Part shown: in pieces, positions 11,735-16,485 of the stretch
How positions within the stretch are numbered: position 1 is the first letter of the stretch
Layout of the letters: every line of letters starts with the position of its first letter
Assembly: GCF_002741015.1 (NCBI RefSeq)
Contig: NZ_CP016620.1
Location: forward strand, 248,001 to 312,000
DNA length: 64,000 nucleotides
Direction: 5' to 3'
From: Microvirga ossetica
Lineage (GTDB): Bacteria; Pseudomonadota; Alphaproteobacteria; Rhizobiales; Beijerinckiaceae
The notes under the pieces: model-generated
Told to the model about the DNA's origin: nothing
Seen by the model: the letters and a program-made list of their open reading frames with translations, nothing else
Databases searched by the model: none
Position numbers and translations under genes: made by a program

Positions 11735-12549
11735 GGCATCGTCAAGTTAACGAGTTGAGGTCGGAACGCCGGCTCTGCATCCGCGGATCAGAAGGTCGGC
11801 GCAACGCCGGTCACATCACTCCAAGTCATAAAGGCTTGCGCCCGGAATGCGCGATGGTCAGCTGCATTGGTGTTTGACGGACGGCGAAAGAGGTTCCCAA
11901 CCTGGTCATGAACCGAGAGAAAGCGTTGGGCCTGCCCAGCTGACTTGAAGCGCTTCATGATGCGCTCGCGCCGACGGGTCGGTTGGTGACTATTTTCGGC
12001 TCGATTGTTCAAGCCTTTACGCTGGCGGTGCTCCACACCCGGCATGACAGCCTTCTTCGCGGCGGCATAGCTGGCCAGCTTGTCCGTGATCATCACGCGC
12101 GGTGACCGGCCCTGACGCTTCAGCAGTTTGCGCAGCAAGCGCTTGGCCGCCTCCGCGTTGCGCCGACTCTGAACCAGGATGTCGAGTACGACTCCATGCT
12201 GGTCCACGGCACGCCAGAGCCAATGCTTTTTACCAGCGATGCTGATCACAACCTCATCGAGATGCCATTTGTCGCCAGGAGCCGGATGACGCCTGCGGAT
12301 CTGGTTGGCAAAATCCTGGCCGAACTTCATCGCCCACTGCCGTACCGTCTCGTGGCTGACCAGGATACCTCGGGCAGCGAGCATCTCTTCAACCATGCGC
12401 AGGCTCAAGGGGAACCGGAAATACAGCCACACAACGTGGCTGATGACCTCAGCAGGGAACCGGTGGCGGGCATAGCGAGGATGACGGGTCAGGTTCATGC
12501 CCGCGCGTATGCCAGCATCTCGTCACCACCGCGTTAACTTGACGATGCC
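11735..12549 (-). mobile_element. IS6-family element, copy 2 (815 bp, inverted)
   Basis: Same 18-bp ends as copy 1 (11735-11752 and 12532-12549) in the opposite orientation. Its right end cuts a universal stress protein gene at 12550. Its left flank AACAAAAC mirrors the left flank of copy 1, which records the inversion. The outer flank CCGCCGAG does not match the inner flank of copy 1, so the ancestral insertion itself had already lost its target duplication. Confidence 0.92.
11788..12498 (-). CDS. IS6-family transposase (copy 2)
   Basis: This 236-residue DDE transposase is intact and nearly identical to the one at 5549-6259, with the same HLDEVVISIAGKKHWLWRA motif. Two residue differences show that the two copies have begun to diverge since duplication, or that one was replaced by recombination. 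Confidence 0.92.
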   Translation of the reverse strand: MNLTRHPRYARHRFPAEVISHVVWLYFRFPLSLRMVEEMLAARGILVSHETVRQWAMKFGQDFANQIRRRHPAPGDKWHLDEVVISIAGKKHWLWRAVDQHGVVLDILVQSRRNAEAAKRLLRKLLKRQGRSPRVMITDKLASYAAAKKAVMPGVEHRQRKGLNNRAENSHQPTRRRERIMKRFKSAGQAQRFLSVHDQVGNLFRRPSNTNAADHRAFRAQAFMTWSDVTGVAPTF

Positions 12550-13556: not shown

Positions 13557-13762
13557 CTAAGACCGTGGCGTCCAGTTCCATGGAAGCAGTTCGTCGACCC
13601 TGTTGGCCGGGTGATCGGCGATGCGCTCGATGACGTCAGCAAGATAGGCTTGCGGGTTGATGCCGTTCATTTTGCAGGTTTCGACGATGGTGTAGATGAC
13701 CGCTGCGCGATCGCCACCGGCATCGGAACCGCTGAAGAGATAGTTTTTCCGGCCCAGTGCCA
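13557..13762 (-). pseudogene. IS66 TnpC transposase, 3' part
   Basis: The minus strand reads ALGRKNYLFSGSDAGGDRAA and ends DHPANRVDELLPWNW, the highly conserved C-terminus of IS66 TnpC. It is one half of a gene split by the recombinase element. Its codons join without gap or shift to the 5' part that ends at 16347 (IRPL + ALGRK). The gene lacks the rest of the IS66 set (TnpA, TnpB) here. Confidence 0.85.
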
Positions 13763-14245
13763 TCGCCCGTTCATTCTGCCCATGTCGGCGAAGAGCGTGA
13801 GGTTCATTATCGTTGGCATCCCTACTTTGGCCGAAAGGTCAGCGTGCGGCGGGTCGAGGAGCGGGCGACTGGCCGGTTTCTCCAGGTGGAAGGCCCATCT
13901 GGCATTGTCGTCTCGATTCCGGGCTGGATGTTAGATCCCATCGCTTGCGCCAAGATGAGAATTGGCCCGCCACAGATTGATCTCGCAGCGTTGTCCGATC
14001 TGAAGAGACTGGTCATGCCGACCGCTGCTTCCCCAAACTCCCCGAGCGCAATCAGATTCGCATGGGAGGAAGTCGATGAAACAGAACAACGTGTCAGCTC
14101 CGATCGCGGGCAGGCAGATGAGCCTGATATTCGAACCCCGCAGATTGGACGGGATGCGCGACGCGGAGCGGGCGAAGACAGTACTGCTTCTTGCCCAAAT
14201 CCTGATGCAGGCCGCCGGCCTCGTCGTCGAGGAGTTGGGCGATGA
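13757..14245 (+). CDS. DUF5372-like protein, first gene of recombinase element
   Basis: The protein contains VHYRWHPYFGRKVSVRR near residue 15 and GWMLDPIACAKMRIGPP near residue 55, then LAALSDLKRLV. I associate this with the DUF5372 family often found just upstream of recombinase genes in rhizobia. Function is unknown. In the integrated state the only in-frame start is GTG at 13757, which belongs to antisense IS66 sequence. In a circular form it would start MKPASPSPVHS from the ATG at 16329. The last 57 codons overlap the next gene in another frame, so the true C-terminus may be shorter. Confidence 0.55.
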   Translation: MPSPVHSAHVGEEREVHYRWHPYFGRKVSVRRVEERATGRFLQVEGPSGIVVSIPGWMLDPIACAKMRIGPPQIDLAALSDLKRLVMPTAASPNSPSAIRFAWEEVDETEQRVSSDRGQADEPDIRTPQIGRDARRGAGEDSTASCPNPDAGRRPRRRGVGR

Positions 14246-14255
14246 CGAAGTCTGA
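14076..14255 (+). CDS. Small recombinase-linked protein, 59 aa
   Basis: ATG at 14076 follows GGGAGGAAGTCG, a strong ribosome binding site. The protein begins MKQNNVSAPIAGRQMSLIFE and ends LMQAAGLVVEELGDDEV. It overlaps the recombinase start by 14 bp. Small genes of this kind sit before such recombinases in rhizobia; I know no proven function. A directionality or DNA-binding accessory role is possible but speculative. Confidence 0.65.
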   Translation: MKQNNVSAPIAGRQMSLIFEPRRLDGMRDAERAKTVLLLAQILMQAAGLVVEELGDDEV

Positions 14256-16314
14256 TCTGATCCCGACGGTGCTGCTGAGGCGCAAGGCCGTCGTCTATGT
14301 GCGCCAGTCGACGCAATCCCAGGTCATGACCAATCTGGAGAGCCAGCGGCGCCAATATGATCTCGTCGATCTTGCACGCCAGCACGGCTTCGCCGACATT
14401 GAGGTCATCGACGATGATCTGGGCCGATCGGCGAGCGGGACGGTGGCGCGCCCGGGCTTCGATCGCCTGGTTGCATGGTTGTGCGCGGGCAAGGTCGGCG
14501 CTGTGTTGTGCCTGGATGCATCGCGGCTCGCGCGCAATGGCCGTGACTGGCATCATCTGCTGGAGTTGTGCGGACTTGTCGAAGCCCGCGTCATCGACCA
14601 TGACGGCGTGTACAACCCCTGCCAGCCCAACGATCGCCTGGTTTTGGGTATGAAAGGCAGCATCAGCGAGTTTGAGCTCGGCGTGCTCAGGACACGGATG
14701 CTCGAGGCCGCCAAGTCGAAAGCGCGTCGGGGCGAGCTGCGCTTGTCAGTACCGTTCGGTTACATCTGGCACCGCGAAGCAGGTCTGGGGCTCGACCCTG
14801 ATCTGCGCTTGCAGGAGGTGATCCGGCTCATCTTCGCCCGCTTCCGCGAACTCGGCAGCGCGCGACAGGTGTTATTGTCGATGACGGCTGATCAGATCCA
14901 CTTCCCACGGCCTTCGGATGAGGGCCGCATGACCAGCTTTACCTGGTTGCCGATCCGCTATCGCAACGTGATCGGCGTGCTCAAGAACCCCTTTTACGCG
15001 GGCGTGTACGTTTACGGGAAAAGCGAAAAGCGGACCTCTATTGTCGATGGGAGGGCCCGCCGGAGCTACGGCCACGGCAAGCCGGTCGGGACCTGGGAAG
15101 TGTTCATCAAGGATCATCACGAAGGGTACGTCAGCTGGGAGGAATACGAGCGAAACCAGAAGCAGTTGGCGCTCAACAACTATGGTCGCGCCGACGGGGT
15201 AAAATCCGGCCGTGGCGGCAAGGCACTGCTGTCAGGCGTTATGACGTGTGGACGGTGCGGGCGGCGACTGAGCGTGGCCTATACCGGTAATCCGCAAAGT
15301 CGACCTGTCTATCGCTGCGACAAGCCCAACCTGATGATGGGCTTGCCCCGGTGCATGACCTTCGGTGGCCCCAGGGTGGACGCGGCTGTTGCGCGTGAAC
15401 TGTTGCGCGCGGTAGAACCCTTGGCGATTGAGGCCGCGTTCGAGGCGGAGCGAATGCACCGGGAACGACAAGATGATCAACGCCAGATCCTCGATCTGGA
15501 GCTTAAGCAGGCCCGCTACGAGGCCGGTCTTGCTGAGCGCCGCTATGCTGCCTGTGATCCCGACAATCGTTTGATCGCTGCGCAGTTGGAGAGAAACTGG
15601 GAAATTGCCTTACGCCGCGTGCAAGATCTGGAGGCGCGCCAGCCCGCCGGAACCCCATCGACCATTGAGGTTGATCAAGGCGCTTTCGCCAACATGGCGG
15701 AAAACCTGTCAGCGGCCTGGAACACTCCTGATGTGACGATGCGTGCCCGTCAGCAACTGCTCCGGACGTTGATCGCAGACATCATTGTCGATGTCGACGA
15801 TACGGTTCGTGATGTCGTGCTCACGATCCATTGGCGGGGCGGCCAGCACTCAGAACTGCGTGTTCGCAAGCCGCGAACCGGCGAACACGGCTGCGCGACA
15901 GCGGAAGATGCGCTGGCAGTCATGCGCAGCATGGCCGGCCGCTGGTCTGACGAGCATATTGCCGCGTCGCTCAATCGGATGGGCTTGCCTACCGGCCAAG
16001 GTAAAACCTGGACGGCGCACCGCGTCTCTTCCGTTCGGCGCGTTCGCGGAATCCACGCCTATCGATCCGCGGAGAAAGACGGCGAATGGCTGACCATGAC
16101 CGAGGCGGCAATGGCGTTAGGCGTTACAAACCACGCGATACGTCGCCTCATCAAAACGGGCGTGCTTCCGGCTGTTCAGGTTGTCCCCGGTGCACCGTAT
16201 CAAATCCGAGCCGACGATCTGGCGTCAGAGCCGATCAAAACTGCGATGGCCCGGAAGGGCCGCCCGTGTCGCGCTGCTGATGCGGGTACGCTTCCAATGT
16301 TTACAGACACTTGA
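14242..16314 (+). CDS. Large serine recombinase
   Basis: 690 residues. The resolvase domain (1-150) has the nucleophile Ser in VYVRQSTQSQV and the Arg-rich active site in CLDASRLARNGRD. A recombinase domain follows (150-300), then a zinc ribbon with CGRCGRR and a later Cys pair, and a coiled-coil stretch near 400-440. A C-terminal helix-turn-helix (LTMTEAAMALGVTNHAIRRL) ends it. All key residues are present, so it should be active. The stop codon is only 30 bp from the right junction. Confidence 0.92.
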   Translation: MTKSDLIPTVLLRRKAVVYVRQSTQSQVMTNLESQRRQYDLVDLARQHGFADIEVIDDDLGRSASGTVARPGFDRLVAWLCAGKVGAVLCLDASRLARNGRDWHHLLELCGLVEARVIDHDGVYNPCQPNDRLVLGMKGSISEFELGVLRTRMLEAAKSKARRGELRLSVPFGYIWHREAGLGLDPDLRLQEVIRLIFARFRELGSARQVLLSMTADQIHFPRPSDEGRMTSFTWLPIRYRNVIGVLKNPFYAGVYVYGKSEKRTSIVDGRARRSYGHGKPVGTWEVFIKDHHEGYVSWEEYERNQKQLALNNYGRADGVKSGRGGKALLSGVMTCGRCGRRLSVAYTGNPQSRPVYRCDKPNLMMGLPRCMTFGGPRVDAAVARELLRAVEPLAIEAAFEAERMHRERQDDQRQILDLELKQARYEAGLAERRYAACDPDNRLIAAQLERNWEIALRRVQDLEARQPAGTPSTIEVDQGAFANMAENLSAAWNTPDVTMRARQQLLRTLIADIIVDVDDTVRDVVLTIHWRGGQHSELRVRKPRTGEHGCATAEDALAVMRSMAGRWSDEHIAASLNRMGLPTGQGKTWTAHRVSSVRRVRGIHAYRSAEKDGEWLTMTEAAMALGVTNHAIRRLIKTGVLPAVQVVPGAPYQIRADDLASEPIKTAMARKGRPCRAADAGTLPMFTDT

Positions 16315-16346
16315 ATATGGAGTGCACAATGAAACCTGCTTCACCA

Positions 16347-16485
16347 AAGGTCTGATTGCCCGCTCAGCGGCATTGTTGCTCATCTCAAGCCGCCCGTCAG
16401 TGGCGTAAACCGTGAGAGCCTTCCAGCGGGAGGTCATATAGCGGATCGCCTTGGCCAATTCGCTTTTGCCGCTGATGCGCGTGAG
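16347..16485 (-). pseudogene. IS66 TnpC transposase, internal part
   Basis: The minus strand reads LTRISGKSELAKAIRYMTSR, WKALTVYATDGRLEMSNNAA and ERAIRPL: the region around the catalytic Glu of IS66 TnpC. It continues in frame into 13557-13762 once the recombinase element is removed. At its other end it is fused to a decayed terminase gene near 16486, so the 5' two thirds of tnpC are missing. Confidence 0.85.

Follow-up and report, generated by a model that had tools for sequence, protein, structure and literature searches.

A small serine-recombinase element at a conserved codon joint of IS66 tnpC in Microvirga ossetica, with an accessory gene split by its attachment site

Integration into conserved coding sequence is known for several large serine recombinases (LSRs). 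Passages of Durrant et al. 2022 (PMC10083194) describe LSRs hitting one site in a prolyl isomerase gene, and many in a gene for a magnesium chelatase/protease; a multi-targeting LSR clade stands apart from them. Passages of Tommasini, Mageeney and Williams 2023 (PMC10111431) describe, for helper-embedded phage-inducible chromosomal islands (PICIs), an integrase clade with a repeated tropism for the genes of another mobile element. In the SSV-type suicidal integrases of archaea, as presented in parts of a review (PMC8371274), the attachment site attP lies inside an element gene, which is split by integration. Here, we analyzed a 2,584-bp element with an LSR gene, which interrupts the transposase gene tnpC of an IS66-family insertion sequence (IS). 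It lies in a window of 64,000 nucleotides (the whole stretch of DNA analyzed; NZ_CP016620.1, positions 248,001 to 312,000), on contig C5 of the 9.63-Mb genome of Microvirga ossetica, which has six contigs.

As far as those passages go, the element has in common with the LSRs of PMC10083194 that its core is 2 bp long and that attB is a conserved coding sequence. Unlike them, it has a target gene that belongs to another mobile element, which can give several sites per genome, and it is just 2.6 kb long, with an accessory gene split by attP. Transposase targets are not mentioned in those passages. A likeness to the helper-embedded PICIs, as portrayed there, is that subclades match the target site. 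The PICIs, however, are phage satellites with tyrosine integrases in prophage late genes, whereas here serine recombinases of minimal elements are found in IS and intron mobility genes; the element in the window, with a serine recombinase and two small genes and its position in tnpC, falls outside that group. In the SSV-type, by the same review, the integrase itself is split. Here, the recombinase gene is entire within the element; attP does not lie within it, and the split gene is a small accessory gene (gene 1), which loses its start. The IS66 family (PF03050/PF13817) is the host that supplies the target gene and the flanks, not a relative of the element. LSRs with conserved coding targets, an integrase clade targeting mobile-element genes, and genes split by integration are thus already known separately; no report of their combination was found. 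Recombinase elements in IS66 tnpC were not found described in the open-access literature, subscription papers and IS databases being outside the scope.

Comparison of related loci makes it very probable that the recombinase targets the codons of a conserved joint of IS66 tnpC, ERxIRPx/A-LGRKN (slash, point of insertion), mostly antisense to tnpC. The ends, the core, the target, the independence of the insertions, the empty sites and the tie between target and recombinase clade are all shown at the sequence level. We take the joint motif to adjoin the catalytic Glu of IS66.

In the window, the element occupies positions 13759–16342, from the left core to just before the right core, and divides tnpC at IRPL/ALGRK, as a preliminary description of this DNA had proposed; the length of 2,584 bp also agrees with that description. 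The ends were set model-free: the copies in the genome agree over 2,582 bp (0–1 mismatch), and their flanks diverge on both sides. To the left lies the C-terminal part of the interrupted tnpC (ALGRKNYLFSGSD...; 13560–13760, minus strand; PF13817, E 5e-21; NF033517), with the codon-exact motif ALGRKNYLFSGSDAGG. To the right lies its N-terminal side up to IRPL (MAKAIRYMTSRWKALTVYATDGRLEMSNNAAERAIRPL; 16345–16458, minus strand; PF03050, E 1e-12; motif score 10 of 10), which reads ...NNAAERAIRPL from 16345. The left crossover dinucleotide, GC (13759–13760), corresponds to positions one and two of the conserved tnpC Ala codon; the right one is AC (16343–16344). Both were placed by comparison of the four genome copies and by core tables, the left one also by the empty sites of a relative, and the letters were checked at both. 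Terminal inverted repeats were not found, the best end match being 11/20 against a shuffled mean of 10.5. Without such repeats, and without a target duplication longer than 2 bp at a relative's empty site, the element does not have the marks of a DDE insertion sequence. Besides genes 1 and 2, this small integrative element carries the gene for an LSR.

The LSR gene (14242–16314, plus strand) encodes 690 aa with the domain order of the family, a Resolvase catalytic domain (PF00239, 1.7e-22) followed by a Recombinase domain (PF07508, 1.2e-17) and a zinc ribbon (Zn_ribbon_recom, PF13408, 6e-8). The protein also matches the integrase group phrog_95 (3e-65), and its sequence relatives in the PDB are YokA and TnpX.

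Relatives were collected by a scan of one genome per species, which gave 79 loci from the best 80 of the 102 encoding a relative. We examined 82 loci, namely 76 of the 79, L010, L011 and the four copies of M. ossetica itself, with recombinases 58–100% identical. Left out of the 79 were L043 (the same locus as L011) and L093 and L094 (identity below 55%). L001–L004 and L009 duplicate L012–L015 and L079, and three of the 82 loci (L057, L097, L100) were readable on neither side. Among the readable flanks, 62 of 68 on the left and 61 of 65 on the right carried the IS66 motif precisely at the core codon, and 50 of the 54 loci readable on both sides passed on both. Random positions passed the same codon-exact test in 322 of 24,600 cases; the agreement is far beyond chance. 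Three misses, excluded from the 62 and 61, are visibly damaged IS66 copies (left, L030 and L090, by frameshift or decay; right, L096, by deletion). The remaining ones are unassigned or rearranged (left L074, L077, L078, L082; right L065, L069, L095), and save for these few ends no varied, non-IS66 sites were seen at a recombinase identity of at least 58%. By the codon-exact test and the tree described below, the element belongs to a clade whose ends lie at IRPx/A of tnpC. Three scan loci came from metagenome-assembled genomes labelled Verrucomicrobia, Acidobacteriaceae and Acidobacteria (L040, L064 and L085); these may be binning errors.

Altogether, 48 distinct target sites were assembled, all at the same codon, which bears out the earlier proposal that the recombinase recognizes this coding stretch and finds targets in many IS66 copies and genomes. 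The element was antisense to tnpC in 46 of the 48 and in the same sense in two. Compared pairwise over the central 40 bp, the 46 antisense sites were 53% identical in the median (minimum 28%), and the bases that varied least were those of invariant codons. Therefore, the recombinase appears to accept wide DNA variation while keeping to the codons of one motif. A preference against IRG sites was considered, as the two uninterrupted TnpC read in the host genome have G for P, but several occupied sites have G as well and no rule emerged. The attB sites share only scattered bases, as would also be expected of a recombinase of loose specificity, with the IS66 copies left as survivors if insertion at other places does harm. 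One sister recombinase of the host genome does sit in varied genes (IS630-like, reverse transcriptase, transporter-like). Nevertheless, we regard loose specificity as very improbable: the position is exact to the codon in nearly all readable flanks despite other harmless sites in each genome, and most sister clades have a constant target of their own.

The host genome carries four near-identical copies of the element (C5:262242, C2:117977, C2:165667 and C4:407506), which differ by 0–1 mismatch per 2,582 bp and lie each in a different IS66 copy. All eight junctions are at the tnpC joint, and the three readable C-part flanks are 65–68% identical to one another at the DNA level. On a Sinorhizobium fredii plasmid, three identical copies (0 mismatches in 2,579 bp) have IS66 flanks that are 59–64% identical. 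The same element in different IS66 copies, in this genome and on that plasmid, means that the element itself moved. The preliminary description had suggested a spread by riding on IS66, and this is not supported. A rival reading, an old passenger that entered tnpC once and was then carried by IS66 transposition and descent, would also give a constant position, and two pairs of loci (L046/L048 and L031/L034) do share element and flanks. It was rejected, with next to no probability left to it, because identical elements occur in IS66 copies only 59–68% alike. The low identity of the 46 antisense sites, the opposite orientation in two of the 48 sites (one deduced from swapped flanks) and the empty-site alleles, which indicate insertion into an IS66 already resident, also argue against it.

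The swapped flanks belong to C2:117977 and C2:165667 (L013, L014), one of which has two N parts and the other two C parts. This fits an inversion of the ~48 kb between them, which is probably what happened. With the inversion undone on paper, one of the two copies had the same orientation as tnpC; two of the 48 sites come from these flanks. In the S. fredii plasmid pSF83666a, at ~301–305 kb (L158, L159), one tnpC appears to hold two close recombinase elements: a tnpC-joint element and, at LFAGSD/G, a relative with 45% identity.

Empty sites, which the preliminary description had proposed to look for, were found. In R. johnstonii 3841 pRL12, an element lies in an IS66 between the region of a HIT-domain gene and groES, and the same region in R. 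leguminosarum 22B and R. johnstonii TP60 has an intact TnpC reading frame (551 codons including the stop). Between occupied and empty alleles, the right flanks match in 1,292 and 1,291 of 1,300 bases and the left flanks in 199 of 200. The empty attB, ...CCGAGG-GC-GAAGCC..., equals the left half, GC and the right half, and both attL and attR have GC. Integration at this relative's locus was therefore conservative, with a 2-bp core and no further duplication. A Croceicoccus plasmid (OT19, L169) provides another empty site, with GG. These alignments place the core at the start of the Ala codon that follows IRPx, on its first two bases. Both ends carried an identical dinucleotide in 39 of 53 loci (GC 30, CC 4, AC 3, GG 1, CA 1); counted among the 53 are L092, with a misread right end, L065 and L069, which look rearranged, and the pair of own copies whose flanks are swapped. 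The CCA reported earlier is indeed present at both junctions, but as crossover core it was rejected; the core consists of the dinucleotide (GC left, AC right), and the bases that follow it vary among relatives.

The near-identical copies within one genome and the probable inversion between two of them could also point to copying between IS66 copies by homologous recombination or gene conversion, without the recombinase. We consider this extremely improbable. Conversion needs flanking homology, yet the flanks differ up to the core on both sides, and the empty sites of other strains show clean insertion with the 2-bp core.

The attachment site splits gene 1. In the integrated element, gene 1 has no start codon (PVHSAHVGEEREVHYRWHPYFGRK...; 13761–14242, stop at 14243–14245, plus strand); coding evidence covers about the first 90 codons, with the frame open to 14242. 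Its Shine-Dalgarno (SD) sequence, GGAG (16319–16322), and ATG (16329–16331) lie at the right end of the element, on the plus strand (16319–16331), where the letters were checked. When the two ends of the window copy are joined at the core, they read MKPASPSPVHSAHVGEEREVHYRWHPYFGRK... in one frame. In 54 loci, the recombinase stop was where expected and enough sequence followed it; another 22 lacked this stop and were left out of the count. Of the 54, 53 had the ATG at exactly the same place and 51 an SD-like sequence. The single locus without the ATG was L077 (58% identity). The joined frame had 163–179 codons in 50 of 53 loci with both ends, the exceptions being L049, L051 and the misread L092. 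None of 65 loci in the integrated state had an in-frame ATG preceded by an SD. By this reading of the frames, only a circle or a head-to-tail junction supplies gene 1 with its own start, although the rule is not absolute, as discussed below. A first open reading frame call, 13757–14245 with a GTG start, was discarded; the GTG spans the junction and is absent at that place in the other three copies.

A natural head-to-tail junction was found in Bradyrhizobium septentrionale pBs162S2c (L170, 20442–30511), with an intact gene 1 of 100 residues (WP_176540804.1) after the recombinase stop. The left end of the first copy is in IS66 tnpC, and the second copy breaks off before an ISL3 transposase gene. 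A decayed junction is present in S. meliloti pCpl. Of the 93 plasmid records matched in a similarity search, two had contiguous junctions; so small a number would be expected of transient circles and rare tandem copies. Of 91 proteins like intact gene 1, three begin with the junction-type MT(Q/H)AS...HSAH; most of the others begin at or beyond the junction, often with target-derived letters.

The codon-phase test on 33 relatives indicates that the gene 1 frame is under purifying selection, with substitution of 0.31–0.55 at third positions against 0.07–0.34 at first and second positions over ~90 codons. From an offset of ~300, the pattern moves to the frame of gene 2 (14076–14255, plus strand), which encodes a small protein of 59 aa. 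Gene 2 overlaps gene 1 in the 3' part of that frame and also runs into the start of the recombinase gene. No stop interrupts the gene 2 frame in any of the 33 relatives, and a small hypothetical protein is annotated at this position in relatives. Gene 1 had no Pfam, NCBIfam or PHROG match. An assignment to DUF5372 was rejected: the window protein gave no match even at E 10, and only the sister gene of L016 did, at 0.003 and below the cut-off. In the NCBI annotation, a DUF5372 gene stands near two sister recombinases.

The split might be a mere by-product, with the constant frame across the ends reflecting binding of the recombinase to attP instead of a protein made from the circle. Third positions changed at 0.31 in the first 20 codons and at ~0.5 further on, as expected for a constraint on the DNA near attP. 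We find this explanation rather improbable, since over ~90 codons third positions changed more than first and second ones, SD and ATG stand at a fixed place in nearly all loci, the natural junction holds an intact gene 1, and the same design recurs in two sister types (L016, L019).

A gene 1 protein made from the circle fits the following mechanism. The recombinase would integrate a circular form into the tnpC joint, with the crossover at the first two bases of the Ala codon, and the reverse reaction would excise the circle and restore tnpC. In the circle, the right end with SD and ATG would meet the left end, so that gene 1 gains its own start directly behind the recombinase gene. Its protein would then be made from the circle or from a tandem. 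The protein might be a circle-state factor that favors integration and is turned off by the insertion itself; we rate this role as possible but unlikely. At the C-terminus of the recombinase, residues 616–661 matched HTH_17 with 25.4 bits, just under the cut-off of 27, and the 'excise' domain TIGR01764 with 30.2 bits, above the cut-off of 28.8. This excisionase-like helix-turn-helix could be a built-in directionality part.

Several observations weigh against this account. The two end dinucleotides differed in 14 of the 53 loci, among them the window copy (GC left, AC right), the misread L092 and the rearranged-looking L065 and L069, and unequal cores are not predicted by a strict serine-integrase rule unless mismatches are tolerated or bases changed later. 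All three S. fredii copies have GC on the left and CC on the right, so mismatched cores may be tolerated. Some in-frame start from the target side was present in 32 of 65 integrated copies (13 with ATG, two with any start and an SD), and gene finders call such starts; expression of gene 1 only from the circle is therefore not absolute. A strict attP-like pattern was found in none of 385 class genomes and in no viral contig, and no circle, excision or transposition has been observed.

Homologs were present in 583 of 72,556 plasmid records; the best place had at least 80% identity in 100 of these and at least 60% in 159, by identity alone and with no coverage required. Five of the 385 class genomes, the host among them, gave a match with an E-value no higher than 1e-150; of the remaining four, G326 alone carries the close type (85–90%).

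More distant recombinases, 34–47% identical, came from the host genome, from three class genomes and 11 plasmids, and from other stretches of the S. fredii plasmid. This sister sample comprised 17 plasmid or genome loci, the plasmid loci being picked along the ranking, plus own-genome copies; targets were identified by visual inspection of the translated flanks, and a sample of them was backed by Pfam. At this distance, the targets mostly differ, clade by clade. Two sites were found in IS66 tnpB, RGRRG/DLIKV (L016, L142, L143) and YLLEG/IDW (a second element in L016), and a second site (site B) in tnpC, at LFAGSD/G (L134, L159). IS21 was hit in istB at Walker A (L133, L141, L144, L146) and at a C-terminal motif (L017, L018), and in istA (L161). 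Further targets were the DYN of an IS3-type integrase core (L145, L151, L160, and L135 on a very short flank), a reverse transcriptase (L147, L148, L149) and another serine recombinase gene (L150). One family (L019–L022) was loose in its choice, with an IS630-like gene, a transporter-like gene and a reverse transcriptase as targets.

Some of these loci belong to the host genome. L016 (C2:214500–228000) is one IS66 with two elements, at RGRRG/DLIKV (45% recombinase) and YLLEG/IDW (36%). In L017 and L018 (C1:2960123 and C4:448086), the element of a 38% recombinase lies in istB at DLIGD/PTLGDAILDRL, in both orientations. L019–L022 are four of the five host-genome copies of a 36% recombinase, with a common core near CGAAC and looser targets.

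In a tree of 44 recombinases, the 22 tnpC-joint rows formed one clade with a support of 100. The istB Walker A, IS3-type, tnpB DLIKV and tnpC site B rows also formed one clade each; the three reverse-transcriptase rows did not (two changes), and six target labels were single-row. The twelve target labels needed 11 changes, the minimum possible, compared to a mean of 21.5 for shuffled labels. The tree was built by a quick method without a mixture model, and branches are long where the rows are most distant. In 17 of 19 sister loci, an ATG stood no more than 20 nt from the recombinase stop, and by an automatic test the first ATG had an SD in 11 of the 19. An in-frame split of gene 1 was read directly in L016, L019 and L021.

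Tentatively, with a confidence a little short of even, we propose a guild of minimal serine-recombinase elements that home into catalytic or signature codons of the mobility proteins of other mobile elements. Each clade would have re-specialized on one motif, would disarm its host element on insertion and, with its attachment site placed inside gene 1, would have an inbuilt means of sensing that it is circular. The targets of the guild would be IS66 tnpC and tnpB (two sites each), the Walker A and C-terminal motifs of istB, istA, the IS3-type integrase core and reverse transcriptase motifs. The sister sample is small and picked along the ranking, so we treat the guild as a lead.

For IS66, each insertion truncates TnpC and should disable the IS while it is occupied. 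In the window, just 38 residues of the N part, beside the element, match, so this IS66 copy looks degenerate beyond them; the short N part fits decay after inactivation. A transposase gene with an IS240-type DDE domain (PF13610) lies at 11788–12498, ~1 kb from the IS66 remnant.

A target in a conserved motif of a multicopy gene family allows movement between the IS66 copies of one genome and offers a site in any genome that bears IS66. As these are the most constrained codons of a multicopy mobile gene, a site is available in many genomes, and its loss should seldom harm the host. The elements would act as natural inactivators of IS66. The recombinase series, with its defined coding-motif targets, would be useful for studying how the specificity of serine integrases changes, and an accessory gene with its own start only in the circle would offer a testable switch for the direction of integration in bacteria.

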